A stretch of DNA of 64,000 nt from Methylobacillus sp. (lineage in GTDB: Bacteria > Pseudomonadota > Gammaproteobacteria > Burkholderiales > Methylophilaceae): NCBI GenBank assembly GCA_031277395.1, contig JAITML010000020.1, positions 1-64,000 of the forward strand, written 5' to 3'. Positions 52,489 to 59,804 of the stretch are shown one piece after another; the first letter of the stretch is position 1; each line of letters begins with the position of its first letter. The position numbers and the translations under genes are program-made. Under the pieces are notes generated by a model. The model had not been told where the DNA came from and did not search any database. It saw only the letters and a list, made by a program, of their open reading frames with translations.

Positions 52489-53934
52489 TTGCGTATTCTC
52501 TACGTTACCTCCGAAGCCTTTCCGCTCGTCAAAACCGGCGGATTGGCCGATGTCAGCGGCTCACTTCCGGCTGCGCTCAAACATCTTGGCGCAGATGCGC
52601 GCATACTGATTCCCGGTTATCCGCAGGTGCTCGCAAATCTGCGTGATCCGCAGCCGCTCATCGAATTGAAATGGCTGCCCGCGATAGGCAATGTGCAACT
52701 TATCGGCGGCCACATGCCCGATACCGGCGTGCCCGTGATCGTCATTGAGCACCGCGATTTATATGACCGTAGCGGCGGCCCCTACTCCGACACGCTCGGA
52801 CAGGAATGGGGCGATAACGCGTTACGTTTTGGCATTCTCTCGCGCATCGCCGCGATTCTGTCGTCAAAAATCAGCCCGCTGGTGGACTGGATACCCGATA
52901 TCGTCCATTTCAACGACTGGCAAGCCGGCCTGACGGCGGCTTATATGCGCTACTCGGGCGCGCCTCACGCCAAATCGGTGCTGGGCATACACAATCTCGC
53001 GTTTCAGGGAAATTTTCCGCCGGAATGGGTGGAAAAACTCGGCCTGCCGCGACAGGCATTCGCACCTGAAGGCCTTGAGTTTTATGGTCATTTATCCTTT
53101 CTCAAGGCCGGTATCTATTACGCTGACGCCATCACCACCGTCAGCCCTTCCTATGCGCGGGAAATCCAGACGGCGGAATACGGCTTCGGCCTGCAAGGGC
53201 TGCTCGCGCACCGCGCGCGCGACATTCACGGCATCTTGAACGGCATAGACACACAGGAATGGAACCCGGCCAAAGACCCGTACCTGCCGCAAAATTACGA
53301 CGGCAATTCACTGGATAAAAAAGTCAGAGTCAAACAGGCGCTGCAACAAAGATCAGGCTTGCATGAAGATGCCGCCGCCCCATTGCTCGGAGTGGTAAGC
53401 CGACTCACGCACCAGAAAGGCTTGGATCTGTTGCTGCACTGCGCTCCCGCGCTGCTGGAACAAGGCTGTCAACTGGCGCTACTGGGCAGCGGCGACCCCG
53501 CGCTGGAACAAGGCTTTATGCTGCTCGCGCAACAACATCCGCGCCAGGTCAGCGTAAGTATTGGCTACAACGAAGCCCTCTCTCACCACATCATGGCGGG
53601 CGCGGACATGTTCGTCATGCCCTCGCGTTTTGAGCCGTGTGGATTAAATCAGATGTACGGCCTGCGCTACGGCACTCCGCCTGTCGTGCGCCGCACCGGC
53701 GGCCTCGCTGACTCGGTGATGGATACCAACGAATTTACCCTCAACCGCAAAACCGCCACCGGTTTCGTTTTCGATCTCGCCACCCCGGAAGATTTGCTCG
53801 CCACCTTACTCCGTGCCCTCGCAAGCTACGGCGACAAAAATCAGTGGAGCGCCATACAAACCAACGGCATGAAAACCGACCTGGATTGGAACCGCAGCGC
53901 GCAGGCGTATCTGGAAATCTACCGCTCGCTATAA
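52489..53934 (+). CDS. glgA: Glycogen synthase (ADP-glucose), GT5
   Basis: 481 residues. RILYVTSEAFPLVKTGGLADVSGSLP holds the KTGGLADV ADP-glucose loop; HFNDWQAGLTA, GIHNLAFQG and SRFEPCGLNQMYGLRYGTPPVVRRTGGL are typical. Makes alpha-1,4-glucan. The start is TTG at 52489; no ATG lies before the first motif. The 208-base divergent gap with gnd includes an imperfect GTCCC/GGGAC repeat but no strong promoter match. No glgB or glgC in view. Confidence 0.94.
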   Translation: MRILYVTSEAFPLVKTGGLADVSGSLPAALKHLGADARILIPGYPQVLANLRDPQPLIELKWLPAIGNVQLIGGHMPDTGVPVIVIEHRDLYDRSGGPYSDTLGQEWGDNALRFGILSRIAAILSSKISPLVDWIPDIVHFNDWQAGLTAAYMRYSGAPHAKSVLGIHNLAFQGNFPPEWVEKLGLPRQAFAPEGLEFYGHLSFLKAGIYYADAITTVSPSYAREIQTAEYGFGLQGLLAHRARDIHGILNGIDTQEWNPAKDPYLPQNYDGNSLDKKVRVKQALQQRSGLHEDAAAPLLGVVSRLTHQKGLDLLLHCAPALLEQGCQLALLGSGDPALEQGFMLLAQQHPRQVSVSIGYNEALSHHIMAGADMFVMPSRFEPCGLNQMYGLRYGTPPVVRRTGGLADSVMDTNEFTLNRKTATGFVFDLATPEDLLATLLRALASYGDKNQWSAIQTNGMKTDLDWNRSAQAYLEIYRSL

Positions 53935-53959
53935 AATCCGGAATCGCTCTGCCTGCGTG

Positions 53960-54111
53960 CTACCCCTCTCCCCAACCCCGGCCCCCTCGCTTAGCTCTCC
54001 CCCAAGGGGCGAGGGGCTTTGCGAGCCCCGTCCTCCCCTTCGTCATTTCCACGAGAAGCCTGCACCTGCTCCCCTCTCCCCGCGTGGGAGAGGGTTGGGG
54101 AGAGGGGGTAG
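53960..54111. repeat. Composite GC-rich palindromic repeat element
   Basis: CTACCCCTCTCCCCAACCC at 53960-53978 is mirrored by GGGTTGGGGAGAGGGGGTAG at 54092-54111 (one-base length difference). Inside are smaller hairpins: CCCCTCGC (53983-53990) with GCGAGGGG (54009-54016), and CCCTCTCCC/GGGAGAGGG around 54072-54093. This type of element is usually repeated through a genome like REP/BIME sequences. It fills most of the 300-base gap after glgA. Confidence 0.7.
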
Positions 54112-54151
54112 AAAAGAGTGCTAGCGCGAGGAGATTACACGCGCGATAAAT

Positions 54152-54212
54152 TGATAACGGGTGTGAGTTAAGCGGCTCGCGTCAGCGAGTCCGCTCGAAC
54201 GAAGGGTTAGGC
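54152..54212 (-). other. attC-like integron recombination site
   Basis: Read on the minus strand, 22 bases after the GNAT stop codon: R'' GCCTAAC (54212-54206), L'' TTCGTTCGAGCGG (54203-54191), a hairpin CTCGC-TGAC-GCGAG, then L' CCGCTTAACTC (54175-54165) and an R' core CGTTATC (54159-54153). Order, length (61 bases) and sequence closely follow the aadA-type attC (CTAAC, TTCGTTCAAGC, GCTTAACTCA, GTTA). R' departs from GTTRRRY, so the site may be decayed. No integrase or second site is seen. Confidence 0.7.
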
Positions 54213-54234
54213 AATTATGAGCTATTAGCATGAT

Positions 54235-54678
54235 CTACTTGGCTTTCTTGGTGTAAACGTGCTGCGTCTTGACTCGCTCATAGCCGATAGATTCATAGAA
54301 CGGATGCGAGTGTTTTCGCGCGGTGTTCGAGCGAACGGTTAGTGTAGTTAGGCCACGACTATACGCCCATTCTTCTGCGGCTTGGACAAGGTTTCGACCT
54401 ACGCCATGCCGTCTGGCTGTGGTATCGACGACCATGCCTACTATTTCGCACTTACTTCCGCTTTCAATGGAAACGCGGTGTTCTATATGTATCCACCCAA
54501 GCAAACGCTCTCCCTGTGCTGCGACGATAACGGCATGATGTCCTTCCGGCAATATTTCCCTAAGTCTCCGCGTCATTTCCTTCGGCTCCGACGAATAGCC
54601 GAGTTCTTCCGATAACCGCGATATTTCCGCTGCATCGGAAATCCGTGCGGGGCGTACTTTAGTGCGTGTTGCATCCAT
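54235..54678 (-). CDS. GNAT-family N-acetyltransferase, probable integron gene cassette
   Basis: 147 residues. GNAT fold with acetyl-CoA loop VDTTARRHGVGRNLV (R-x-x-G-x-G/A type) in motif A, AEEWAYSRGL, and C-terminal FYESIGYERV. Acceptor unknown; many cassette-borne GNATs act on small molecules or antibiotics, but nothing here identifies one. It is followed by an attC-like site and preceded by an AT-rich, possibly promoter-bearing stretch (54737-54808). Base composition is visibly lower in G+C than the core genes around it, consistent with acquisition. Confidence 0.82.
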   Translation of the reverse strand: MDATRTKVRPARISDAAEISRLSEELGYSSEPKEMTRRLREILPEGHHAVIVAAQGERLLGWIHIEHRVSIESGSKCEIVGMVVDTTARRHGVGRNLVQAAEEWAYSRGLTTLTVRSNTARKHSHPFYESIGYERVKTQHVYTKKAK

Positions 54679-54697
54679 GACTTCCAGTAACCGATTG

Positions 54698-54737
54698 TAA
54701 GCGGCGTTCGGATTCTTAAGCCTAATCCGAAACTTAC
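54698..54737. repeat. Inverted repeat before the GNAT gene
   Basis: TTCGGATT (54707-54714) and AATCCGAA (54724-54731) pair perfectly over a 9-base loop, and GTAAG (54698-54702) can extend to CTTAC (54733-54737). On the minus strand the loop contains ATTAGGC, one base from an attC R' core (GTTAGGC). May mark the other cassette boundary or be a regulatory hairpin. Confidence 0.4.
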
Positions 54738-54808
54738 CGCCCTTTAATTTAAAGTAATTTATTAATTTATAGAATTAACTTATTGAATATAATCATTAAT
54801 ATATCCCA

Positions 54809-55597
54809 TCACTTAAACGCTTCCGCCATAAACGCCAGCCCCTTGCGCCATGAATCTGCATCGGCTGCCGGATCGTAAGCTATCGGCATATTGAACTCCT
54901 TGCCAAGCTTGTCCGCATCGGGGCTGGTGAAGGAATGCTGCGCGCCCGGATAGGTCACGATTTCCGCTACCACGCCCGCATCCGCCATCTCTTTGCGAAA
55001 TGCCGCGACTTGTTCCGCCGGAATGAAGGGATCAGCTTCGCCGGTATAAGATGCCATGCGCGCCTGTACCTTGCCGGGCTCGGCGGGATTTTGGGTGCTC
55101 AAGCCGCCGTGAAAACTTTCCACAACCTTGAGCGGCATGCCCGATCGCGCCATGTTCAGTACCACCGTGCCTCCCATGCAATAGCCGATGGCGCCGATAA
55201 CATCCGCGTTCACGGTCGGTTCCTGCTTGAGCAGCGAAAGCGCAGCTTCAAAACGCGCTTGGGCGAGTGCCGCATTACCGGAAATTACACTGGAGAATTT
55301 CTTGGCATCTTCAGGATGGTGCGCGTGTTTTCCGTCGCCGTACATATCCAGCGCCATTGCCGTGTAGCCCTGCTCCGCCAGCATGCGGGCACGTTTGCGC
55401 GCGTAGTCGTTGAGCCCCCACCATTCATGCACCACCAGCACGCCGGGGCGCTTGCCTTGTATCGAGTCATCCCAGACGATATAACCTTTCAGTTGGGTAC
55501 CGTCCGATTCGTAGCTGACTTCCTTTTCCTGAATCGCGGCATGGGCGACGCTTGCAGCGGAAAACAGCAGGATGCCCAGCAATAAAAACTTTTTCAT
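54809..55597 (-). CDS. Exported dienelactone hydrolase-family protein
   Basis: 262 residues. Signal peptide (KFLLLGILLFSAASVAHAA) and alpha/beta-hydrolase core: VHEWWGLNDYARKRA, nucleophile Cys140 in GAIGYCMGGTVVL, the acid in YTGEADPFIP and His in PGAQHSFTSP. Dienelactone hydrolases use a Cys-Asp-His triad on lactones; the periplasmic substrate is unknown. ATG at 55597; the upstream extension to 55633 overlaps the next gene. Confidence 0.88.
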   Translation of the reverse strand: MKKFLLLGILLFSAASVAHAAIQEKEVSYESDGTQLKGYIVWDDSIQGKRPGVLVVHEWWGLNDYARKRARMLAEQGYTAMALDMYGDGKHAHHPEDAKKFSSVISGNAALAQARFEAALSLLKQEPTVNADVIGAIGYCMGGTVVLNMARSGMPLKVVESFHGGLSTQNPAEPGKVQARMASYTGEADPFIPAEQVAAFRKEMADAGVVAEIVTYPGAQHSFTSPDADKLGKEFNMPIAYDPAADADSWRKGLAFMAEAFK

Positions 55598-55623
55598 GGC
55601 TTTTCCTTCTTTCGGATTCGGAG

Positions 55624-56124
55624 TTACAGGCACGGATTCATCACCGGCTCACGCGGAACGGCGAGCAGATGTTTCACCTGTTCCCTGATTTTATCCGGCG
55701 ACATGCTGCGGATTTCGTTGATGATGGGGTCGTCAGGTTGGGCGCAATATTCCTTGATTTGCTCCGGGCTGGCAGTACCGGTCACGCGGTGTTTGAATTC
55801 GTCCAGATTCGCCTGTGTCGGGCGCTCGGATGAGTTTGCGATGATGAATTTATCAATATCGACGATGGCCGCATCAATCGCATCATCCGCAGGTTTGCGC
55901 GGTTTTTGGCACGCTGCTGTTATCGCCTGGACTTCCACATAGATCGCCCAGGAACAAAGCACGGCGCCGTGCCCGCTGGTATCCACCTGGGCTGAAAGCC
56001 CTTTCTCATCAGTCACCGTCTCCACCGGTTTTTTGGTCCCGTCCACTGCCGGATCATTCTGCGCCAGTGCGGAAATGCTTGCGGTGAGCAAGATGGCAGA
56101 TAAAAGAAGGTTGCTATGTTTCAT
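55624..56124 (-). CDS. Exported protein of unknown function
   Basis: 166 residues. Signal peptide (LLLSAILLTASISALA, mature from QNDPAVDG). The mature part has four Cys (VLCSWAIYV, ITAACQKP, KEYCAQPD and MNPCL at the C terminus), likely as disulfides. No family recognised. It begins just upstream of the hydrolase gene and follows the next protein by about 30 bases, suggesting one transcript. Confidence 0.7.
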   Translation of the reverse strand: MKHSNLLLSAILLTASISALAQNDPAVDGTKKPVETVTDEKGLSAQVDTSGHGAVLCSWAIYVEVQAITAACQKPRKPADDAIDAAIVDIDKFIIANSSERPTQANLDEFKHRVTGTASPEQIKEYCAQPDDPIINEIRSMSPDKIREQVKHLLAVPREPVMNPCL

Positions 56125-56153
56125 TTGATCTCTCCGGTTGTTTGGGTCAGGTT

Positions 56154-56672
56154 TTACAACGATTGATCGTCAATCTCCACCAACTGCCAGCACGAATCAA
56201 CCCGCTTGAAATTGTAGCGAATTTGCAGCATGTCGCTTTCGGGGCTGCGATACATGATGTGGCCGGAAGTTGCATCGTCCTGCTCTATGCTTGCTTCATA
56301 GCCTTGTTCCTTGATGCTTTCCGGCGATTCCACCAGTAGTGGCATGGACATTTCCTGTTCGCCAAGCCATTTGGTTACGGGTTTGGGTTCCGGTTCGGAA
56401 TTGATATCCACTATCGACGTAACCTGCAACGGCCATTGCGTGTACTCCGCCTGCGCCTTGCTATGCGTAAATACTTCCGCGAAATCCTTGAAATCGGAGC
56501 CGCAAACCAGCTCTTTGGAATGCGCTTCGCTCGTTTCCAGCGCGGTTTTAAAATCCTTGTCGTGCTGTTCTGCTGTGGGCTGATCGTGTTGTTTATCCAG
56601 ATACACAAAATAAATCAATGCCACAACCGCGCCCGTAAGCGCAAATGCGATGACTTTTGTTGAGGTTTTCAT
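56154..56672 (-). CDS. Membrane-anchored protein of unknown function
   Basis: 172 residues. One N-terminal hydrophobic segment (VIAFALTGAVVALIYFVYL) without a clear cleavage site, then a charged periplasmic domain rich in Glu/Asp with two Cys (ELVCGSDF and DSCWQL). The C-terminal RYNFKRVDSCWQLVEI resembles a small beta domain. No family recognised. Confidence 0.68.
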   Translation of the reverse strand: MKTSTKVIAFALTGAVVALIYFVYLDKQHDQPTAEQHDKDFKTALETSEAHSKELVCGSDFKDFAEVFTHSKAQAEYTQWPLQVTSIVDINSEPEPKPVTKWLGEQEMSMPLLVESPESIKEQGYEASIEQDDATSGHIMYRSPESDMLQIRYNFKRVDSCWQLVEIDDQSL

Positions 56673-56764
56673 TTTTGATTTCTCCGACTCAATGTTTCCT
56701 TTTGCGCTTGCTTAAAGCTGCCGAGGCGAATTTGTTGAGCCACTTCGCCCCTCTTCCAAAGAAT

Positions 56765-56802
56765 CAAGGAGGTCTGTCCGATTGACCGGACCAGCCTCCT
56801 TG
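56765..56802. terminator. Long imperfect hairpin downstream of the DUF4344 gene
   Basis: CAAGGAGG (56765-56772) pairs with CCTCCTTG (56795-56802); inner CTG and TCCG pair with CAG and CGGA with one bulge on each side. It lies 20 bases after the DUF4344 stop on the minus strand. No clear U run, so termination is plausible but not certain. Confidence 0.55.
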
Positions 56803-56821
56803 TTAACGAACCGCATGCCAA

Positions 56822-59062
56822 TCAGTCGGCAAACGGATTGGATTTTCCATCCCATTCCAGCGAGTTTTTGCCGGATGAGTTGTTCTTGCTGTTTGTATCC
56901 ATCGCATTCAGCACACGCGGTGAAAAGTGCGGATCAAGCAAACGGAGCCATGAATTCAGGATTTTGTTGTACTCGTCGCCGCAGCGAGCGGCGCGCGCCT
57001 GCGGCAAGGTGCCGTTGGTGACGAGAACATTGTAGGGTTTCGCGCCGGAGCCATAGGCGAGGCACAGCATGTTGAAATACCGCTGCGCGTCCAGCGAGTG
57101 CTCATCCGCATAATGCGCCATGGTCGGGTTGGTCTTGCTGCTGTTGACCTGGAACCAAACCGAGTTCAGTTTCAAAATACGCGCTCTTTCATTTTCGGTT
57201 TCGGTGTTCATTTTCAACAGCATGATGGTCGCCAGTTGATCGACCGAATCTTCTTCGCGCCCCACGGCGGGCAGTTTGAGCATGTCAATCAACGCATGGC
57301 CGGTTTCATGCAGCAGAATGAAGCGCACGTTGTCGCGGATGAATTCGGCAATGAATTTCTTCGGGTCTTTCATGCCCTTGGACAAGCCTTCCGCCATGGT
57401 GTACAAGCTGTCTATCATCTCGTAGCAAAGCACGATGAAGGAGTCGCCGGGATTGTAAAAGGCGTTTACCGTGCCACACTCTTCCGCCGAGTAATTAAGC
57501 TGCCGCGGCAGAACAAAAGCGCCATCCAGCGTGGAAATTTCGGGGATGCTGGAGAGCAGATGCTCGCTGCCCGCCCATTTGAAGGCGTATTGCAGACTGG
57601 GTGTTTGAGGCGGGTAATAGTGATACACAAAACGCAGACCGCGGCCATCTGACGTTACCAGCGATCCGTCACGCGGGGGCGGCAGCGCGCCATCACGTTG
57701 TTCAATGATTTCCTGGCCGCTGCCGGAATTTGTGGTATTGCTACCGGCGTTACCACCGGTATTGCCGCCACCGGATGATTTTCCACCCGATTCCTTTATC
57801 AGCTTGAGCAAGGTGGGAAACGTCGGCTCACCTTTGGCGGCATCGTCGCCAAATGGGTAAAAACTGCTCGACATCAACACGGAAATATTTTCATAGATTT
57901 TCGTGTCGCCCTGCTCTATCCATCCCAGATCATAACCACGAACTTCCTTGCCGCGTTGCTCGGCGCGCGCATAGAACGCCTGTCCGTTCACGCGACCTGC
58001 GATGATGAAAAAGTTCGGTTTGACGAGTTGGTAGGTAATCGTCGTCTTCTGCCCCTGCGCCCGATTGGTCAGTTCGCTCATTACCTCATTCAGGCTCATG
58101 TTTACCCGAAATGTCATGAGCGACAGTTTTCTATCCTGCGTATCCAGTATTTCTCCGCCCCACGCGCTGTCGTTTCGGTCCAGAGTTAAAACGGCGGCGG
58201 GATAATAGATGCTCATGCCGGTGCGGGTTTTCAGCGGTTGCCAGTTGATCTTGTTCTGGATATCCAGCGCGAAAACGGCAAGTTCCACGGCGTCTTTCGC
58301 CGCCAGTTTGCCGGTGGCGGGGCGCTGGCTTTCCTTCTGGTATTTGGCAATCGCATCGCGCGTGGTCTTGCCGAAATTGCCGTCGGCAAAGCCGTTGTAA
58401 TAGCCTGCCAGTATCAATCCCTCCTGCACGATCCGTTTTTCCCAGATATTGAGCGCACTTTCAATGTCGCCGCTGCTCGCAGGTGGAGCGGAGCTTCCGC
58501 CGGAAGCCGGCGTGGAACCGCCGGATTTCCGGTATTTGCTCTCGTTTTTCGTGATGCACTCCCGCATGGCTGCGACGGCCGAGCTTCCGGTGCTCTCAAA
58601 ACTGAAGGTGATGTTTTGCAAGTTGTCCGGCATCACGAGCGTGAAGTACTTGGTATTTTGTATGGTGTTGAGAAAGCCTTTTTCTTCAATCTGCAGGATT
58701 TCCAGGCTGTTTTTGGACTGGGCATTGAATTTGAAATCCGCTCCGCCGATAACCTTGTTGGAGGCATCGTAATTATTCCAGCGCAGCGTGCCGCTCCCTT
58801 GTGGGTTCATGTTCCAGAGCACGTCCTTCACATAGATCCAGAGCTCGCCGTCGATCAGCGAGCGATGGATCTCTATGATGGAGCCGTCCGTCATCTGGCT
58901 TGAGGCGAAACACGTCGCCTGATTATCGGTAGCGGTACCGCTTACCGCCCAGAATTTGTCGGTTCCCTTGTTGTAAAACGTGGTGGAATCGGCTTGGGCG
59001 CTGCCCATCCCGCAAGCCAAAAGCAGAAATGTGAAAATTGATAGCGTCGTCCGGCGCAACAT
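56822..59062 (-). CDS. Exported DUF4344 putative metallopeptidase with peptidoglycan-binding domain
   Basis: 746 residues. Signal peptide (LSIFTFLLLACGMGSAQA), an N-terminal beta domain (about 25-170), a Ser/Gly/Pro linker, a peptidoglycan-binding domain (about 205-265, LAGYYNGFADGNFGKTTRDAIAKYQ), a middle region (270-420), a Gly/Asn/Ser linker (430-460), and a C-terminal DUF4344 domain with zinc motif His585-Glu586-x-x-His589 (HETGH) and the downstream Glu/Asp-rich REEDSVDQLAT. DUF4344 proteins are predicted metalloproteases; the target is not known. Wall binding plus protease suggests envelope remodelling. It ends 150 bases before the membrane-anchored protein gene, in the same direction. 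Confidence 0.82.
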   Translation of the reverse strand: MLRRTTLSIFTFLLLACGMGSAQADSTTFYNKGTDKFWAVSGTATDNQATCFASSQMTDGSIIEIHRSLIDGELWIYVKDVLWNMNPQGSGTLRWNNYDASNKVIGGADFKFNAQSKNSLEILQIEEKGFLNTIQNTKYFTLVMPDNLQNITFSFESTGSSAVAAMRECITKNESKYRKSGGSTPASGGSSAPPASSGDIESALNIWEKRIVQEGLILAGYYNGFADGNFGKTTRDAIAKYQKESQRPATGKLAAKDAVELAVFALDIQNKINWQPLKTRTGMSIYYPAAVLTLDRNDSAWGGEILDTQDRKLSLMTFRVNMSLNEVMSELTNRAQGQKTTITYQLVKPNFFIIAGRVNGQAFYARAEQRGKEVRGYDLGWIEQGDTKIYENISVLMSSSFYPFGDDAAKGEPTFPTLLKLIKESGGKSSGGGNTGGNAGSNTTNSGSGQEIIEQRDGALPPPRDGSLVTSDGRGLRFVYHYYPPQTPSLQYAFKWAGSEHLLSSIPEISTLDGAFVLPRQLNYSAEECGTVNAFYNPGDSFIVLCYEMIDSLYTMAEGLSKGMKDPKKFIAEFIRDNVRFILLHETGHALIDMLKLPAVGREEDSVDQLATIMLLKMNTETENERARILKLNSVWFQVNSSKTNPTMAHYADEHSLDAQRYFNMLCLAYGSGAKPYNVLVTNGTLPQARAARCGDEYNKILNSWLRLLDPHFSPRVLNAMDTNSKNNSSGKNSLEWDGKSNPFAD

Positions 59063-59255
59063 GGGTTTGAATCTTTCTTCAAAAGATTACTGAAATGAAC
59101 ATTATGTGCTTCACATTACCAGAGTTTATTGTCTTTGAATACTGATTGCCATGCCCGTTGCCATCAAGGCAACCGCCTCGGCGAACAGTTCGGCAAAACA
59201 GCGAAAAATCATTCAAATCGGGTGTATGAAAACAGAAAATAACGACAGGCTACGA

Positions 59256-59804
59256 CTATTCCAGCTTAATGAAGTTCTCGCGGTAATAGCGCAGCTCATC
59301 TATGGATTCGTGGATGTCGGCGAGCGCCGTGTGCTTGCTGGTTTTTTTGAAGCCGTCATAGACCCTGGGCGCCCAACGGCGGGCGAGCTCCTTGAACGTG
59401 CTGACGTCGAGATTGCGGTAGTGGAAGTATTTTTCCAGACGTGGCATGTAGTTGGCCATGAAGCGCCTGTCCTGGCAGATGGAATTGCCGCACATCGGCG
59501 ATTTTCCCGCGCCGACCCACGGTTTGAGAAAGGCGAGCATTTGTTCTTCGGCTTCGGCTTCGGTCAGTGTGGCGGCTTTCACCTTGTCGATCAGCCCGGA
59601 TTTGCCATGCGTGCCTTTGTTCCATGCGTCCATGCCGTCCAGTACGGCATCAGCCTGATGTACGACCAGCGCGGGCGATTCGGCGAGAATTTCCAGATTG
59701 GCATTGGTGATAACGACAGCGAGTTCGAGGATTTTATCGCTGTCGGGCAAAAGGCCGCTCATTTCCATGTCGATCCAAATCAGATTATCGCTATCTTGTG
59801 CCAT
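59256..59804 (-). CDS. orn: Oligoribonuclease
   Basis: 182 residues of the DEDDh exonuclease family, degrading 2-5 nt RNAs and pGpG. Asp12 and Glu14 (WIDMEMSGL), SICQDRRFM and [14 protein letters not shown] provide the acidic and His residues. The 193-base gap before it (59063-59255) shows no gene. Divergent from the M48 protease gene. Confidence 0.97.

Follow-up and report, generated by a model that had tools for sequence, protein, structure and literature searches.

The window analysed here is a stretch of 64,000 nucleotides. On its minus strand, downstream of a gene of the dienelactone-hydrolase family that reads in the same direction, there is a small gene for a GNAT acetyltransferase followed by an integron attC site. 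The gene and its site are convergent with glgA. The following features were identified:

54120 to 54157, minus strand: putative right target flank, which begins TTATCAATTTATC after the cassette and was placed by the G^TT crossover rule
54152 to 54212, minus strand: attC site as integrated, with R'' (GCCTAAC), L'', hairpin, L' and an R' composed of G (cassette) and TTATCA (target)
54158 to 54725, minus strand: complete gene cassette of 568 bp with complementary ends; TTAGGC opens it at 54725 and the G of R' closes it at 54158
54235 to 54678, minus strand: GNAT acetyltransferase gene, 147 aa (PF00583, E 6e-16)
54726 to 54760, minus strand: putative left target flank, which ends AAGTTTCGGA before the cassette and was placed by the cassette end

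The R'' box of the attC site, GCCTAAC, lies at 54212-54206 on the minus strand, fits RYYYAAC and begins 22 bases past the GNAT stop. It is followed on the same strand by TTCGTTCGAGCGG, a hairpin of CTCGC and GCGAG, CCGCTTAACTC and GTTATCA, which ends at 54152 and gives a total of 61 bases (minus-strand letters of 54152-54212, GCCTAACCCTTCGTTCGAGCGGACTCGCTGACGCGAGCCGCTTAACTCACACCCGTTATCA). Model alignment and folding indicate that L'' and L' pair, that L'' carries an extra base and that the central hairpin is present, and the length of 61 bp compares with a range of 57-141 bp. An earlier note on this DNA had described 61 bases in the box order and spacing of aadA-type sites, 22 bases past the GNAT stop, and the boxes are as it described them. 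It had also proposed a search by covariance model and a fold of the bottom strand, and both agreed with an attC. The model, R1, was based on 13 attC sites taken from other genomes in the same family or order; the present genome contributed none. Its sole match at E<=10 in the 64-kb window was exactly 54152-54212 on the minus strand, with 38.1 bits and an E-value of 2.3e-9 that is rough because the calibration was short. On the arrays of relatives, R1 gives about 30-77 bits for most sites. The bottom strand folds at -16.1 kcal/mol with a full 7-bp R helix when R' is restored from the other cassette end, and at -12.8 kcal/mol as integrated. A scan at the Rfam gathering level returned two tRNAs only and no match to an attC family, and a BLAST search of the 73-base site against plasmids returned no match. 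The segment 54152-54212 is a genuine integron recombination site that closes a one-gene cassette, and its recombination by an integrase is predicted from the sequence.

Integron integrases (IntI) recombine the folded bottom strand of the attC of a circular cassette with a target, at the G^TT of R'. This crossover position is also given in PMC12901181. An inserted cassette should therefore begin with TTRRRY and end with G. In the window, TTAGGC is found at 54725-54720 (minus), and the strand upstream of the GNAT gene reads TTTCGGA/TTAGGCTTAAG, with the slash at the joint. Joined to the G at 54158, the hexamer becomes GTTAGGC, the exact complement of R'' (7/7). TTAGGC occurs four times in the window, both strands counted, and one of these is inside the 130 nt that separate the upstream stop from the GNAT start (0.004 expected). 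Thus, the two marks of a gene cassette, an open reading frame closely followed by an attC and a 5' end complementary to R'', are present. The cassette has a G+C content of 51.8%, and the window 55.8%.

The R' box as integrated, GTTATCA, does not fit GTTRRRY, but this does not count against a terminal attC whose target is not an att site. The earlier note had taken this for a partly decayed 3' core, a reading that is not preferred here. The TTAGGC that would complete the box sits at the opposite end of the cassette, and target DNA is therefore the best reading of the letters in its place. On this view the 3' core has not mutated: G alone comes from the cassette and the rest from the target, as expected when a cassette enters DNA other than attI or attC. 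Mutational decay of R' is disfavoured. It requires three changes in R' with L' and L'' intact, and the letters absent there are present at the other cassette end. The last base of the left target is A, and the canonical crossover has G.

In the genomes searched, no close relative of the GNAT was found (best 42% identity), and none of the matches had a neighbouring attC above noise. Plasmids held distant GNATs only, below 40% identity among the matches listed, and viral contigs held none. A search of a bacterial genome collection gave one match of 27 residues, which was uninformative. Matches to the NCBIfam models for AAC(6') and other GNATs scored far below the cut-offs, and therefore no substrate is proposed.

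The cassette lies between glgA and orn. The names orn, lpdA, glcD, ffs, dnaX, glyS, zwf and gnd were assigned by reading the sequences. The gap between glgA and orn is 137 bp in G001, which alone among the compared genomes belongs to the same genus, versus 5322 bp in the present genome, where it contains the cassette, the hydrolase gene and further genes. The 5.3-kb stretch absent from G001 runs from 53934 to 59256; apart from the cassette, it carries the hydrolase gene and three more genes. In the other searched family members, the matches to glgA and orn are about 350-490 bp apart, with one exception of 2.9 kb (G018). The interval is without the cassette in relatives, and in G001 it is without the direct flanks as well; therefore, the exact empty site was not seen. 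It was also not found by way of the hydrolase gene, since the nearest match to this gene among the 40 genomes searched was a distant one (46%). The comparison of this gap that the earlier note had suggested thus gave a cassette-free interval in G001, but one from which the hydrolase region itself is missing. The note's description of a stray cassette in a core chromosome stands in part. The cassette is stray and chromosomal, with no integrase nearby, but its neighbourhood is not conserved core, as glgA and orn are close together in relatives. No terminator-like site was found in 53900-54900. A REP-like element at 53987-54111 is a dispersed repeat, of which the genome has about 40 full or partial copies. 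Guidance of the insertion by this repeat is unsupported, since the repeat is dispersed and no link to insertion was found.

A number of other attC sites are present in the genome. R1 found 20 sites, all but one of them at E<0.01, spread over contigs C19, C83, C69, C77 (the window), C13, C45, C28, C42 and C40. The assembly is a draft of 84 contigs with a completeness of 99.99%, and on C13, C19 and C83 an attC lies no more than a few hundred bases from a contig end. The ends of C19 and C83 overlap, and the two together carry a single array of about ten cassettes, the first of which joins lpdA at its stop codon. At this junction, AAACG/TTAGGC, the stop TAG is supplied by the cassette end; the terminal site of the array is eroded. 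In G001, lpdA is directly followed by a glcD-like gene, and in the present genome the array stands between the same two genes. On C40, a single cassette is located between the SRP RNA gene (ffs) and dnaX, and the gap is 391 bp versus 61-130 bp in seven relatives. The cassette-free target is thus seen in relatives for both the lpdA-glcD and the ffs-dnaX loci. In addition, there is a single attC ahead of glyS (C42), a single cassette on C45 and small arrays on C28 and C69. The earlier note had pictured a cassette alone beside a REP-like element. The element is real, but the cassette is not a one-off, with about 20 attC sites at several places in the genome. Some of these loci have at least two clustered attC sites, which is the criterion for a CALIN. 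The window site falls outside it, as R1 found no second attC in the 64 kb. Nor is the window site a complete integron, since an attI-like leader was looked for and not found there and neighbouring intI and attI are absent.

Other genes were noticed at two of these loci. On C13, a full Qat anti-phage set (QatA-D) and an AbiEii-like gene are found just before the attC at the contig end. By eye, the genes of the small array on C28 (66871-69800) include two that look like a toxin-antitoxin pair and one whose product is similar to the formaldehyde-activating GFA family.

Most of the attC sites in the genome belong to one sequence type, ATTGCATTCAACCCGGAC. The window attC groups instead with the site that opens the lpdA array, its closest attC (93% identical), and with the C13 site. 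Beyond the caution of the earlier note, nothing was found in favour of a chance hairpin resembling an attC, and this close match within a real array, the E-value of about 2e-9 and the complementary cassette ends exclude it for practical purposes. It is also very unlikely that a longer array once stood at this locus and left the window cassette as its only remnant. The small arrays elsewhere and the decay of terminal sites, as at the lpdA array, would suit such a history, but both ends of the single cassette complement perfectly and no second site was found in the window. Survival from an array is less likely than arrival of the cassette within the 5.3-kb stretch, which is weighed below.

Integron integrases were searched for as well. 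In the assembly, no intact one was found over the family cut-off. Two recombinase frames match the family below the cut-off and were taken as XerC/XerD. Integrases over the cut-off were identified in 22 of 60 relatives. The locus on C69 (50641-53030) comprises an array of five cassettes, preceded by an attI-like leader, and a short stub that resembles intI and is broken by an in-frame stop. The leader carries a promoter-like TTGACA-N17-TAGACA. Beyond it, and divergent as an intI should be, the frame reads METKPPTLPGQLCDAI, the stop and then VQHYSMHTEDQYVF, which resembles the N-termini of IntI proteins. The stub has about 27 residues, with 0.057 as its best E-value when the cassette loci were searched. 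The C69 locus is probably a dead chromosomal integron and the ancestral one of the genome, an assignment to which position contributes no less than similarity. A leader with 70% similarity is present ahead of the C45 cassette. A third attI-like segment, at C53:10876-10940, is shorter (80% over 66 bp) and lies between an apparent RNase P RNA gene and an ORF, with no attC found there by R1.

An intact integrase could possibly be located in an assembly gap, and the system would then still be active. The number of contigs and the ends of C13, C19 and C83 near attC sites leave some room for this. However, nothing was over the cut-off at this completeness, intI appears as a stub on C69 and sites are eroded, so a hidden integrase is quite improbable.

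The window cassette was probably put as a single complete unit by an integron integrase into ordinary chromosomal sequence, at a secondary site of the attG type downstream of the hydrolase gene, and the integrase is probably extinct. IntI would have joined the bottom strand of the attC of a circular GNAT cassette, at G^TT, to a chromosomal target. The target before insertion would have read ...TTTCGGA/TTATCAATT..., or had G at the joint. The product would be target...GGA/TTAGGC...cassette...CACCCG/TTATC...target. Events of the same kind probably set cassettes, single or in small arrays, at several other positions of the genome, with the C69 array, its leader and its stub as the probable dead ancestral integron. 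There being no integrase, the window cassette would therefore be fixed. The lineage's own integrase, now extinct, presumably made the insertion, and presumably none is hidden in an assembly gap. The earlier note had remarked that a cassette alone beside a REP-like element would be an unusual off-target insertion, and that no integrase was in view. The lack of an integrase is confirmed, both nearby and, for an intact one, in the whole assembly; several other such places exist in the genome.

The main rival is that the cassette came ready-made. It would have been inserted in another strain or a mobile element and would have arrived as part of the 5.3 kb, specific to this lineage, that separate glgA from orn. 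The whole stretch, rather than the cassette alone, is extra relative to G001, and the window attC is of another type than most attC sites of the genome. However, its closest attC is in the same genome, and the lpdA-glcD and ffs-dnaX cassettes stand in regions common to relatives; therefore, insertion did happen within the lineage. A ready-made arrival is accordingly considered rather unlikely, and insertion by the lineage's integrase is preferred.

Tentatively, the genome may be a fossil record of a chromosomal integron that, before dying, scattered single cassettes and small arrays to unrelated places, some of them by lpdA, ffs-dnaX and glyS, where they are now fixed. Integration of cassettes at attG sites has reportedly been shown in the laboratory. 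If true, the fossil record would be a natural counterpart of laboratory attG experiments, and it would point to integrons as a source of genes that stay in a genome after the integrase itself is gone.

Events of this kind are known, and the window cassette adds a clear and well delimited new case. Insertion of cassettes at attG sites is already known (Loot et al. 2024, Nat Microbiol 9:228, as cited in PMC12444791 and PMC12901181). The likeness to attG insertion is that chromosomal DNA other than attI or attC has received a cassette at G^TT; the window case differs in being natural and old, with an A as the left target base. Clusters of attC without an integrase, and single ones too, are already described in PMC9024848. 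The window shares with single-attC CALINs one attC with its gene and no integrase nearby, but here both cassette ends are delimited and several more such places are found in the genome. In Xanthomonas, CALINs are located at several chromosomal loci away from the ancestral integron, along with integron decay (PMC12444791). Cassettes at several chromosomal loci and integrase decay are common to both, but the present genome is of another lineage, some of its loci have a single cassette and its intI is reduced to a stub. The aadA-type cassettes of class 1 integrons are alike in attC box order, spacing and size; the window cassette differs from them in having no integron platform and in its gene, a GNAT with no proposed substrate. 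The interest lies in the number of cassette places in one genome, together with a probable dead integron. Natural cases with both ends readable and with cassette-free relatives open two questions to study: which sites outside integrons take up cassettes, and how the cassettes fare after integrase loss.

Five family members, G001 among them, each have several attC sites and no integron integrase over the cut-off. Loss of the integrase that leaves cassettes behind may therefore be common in the family.
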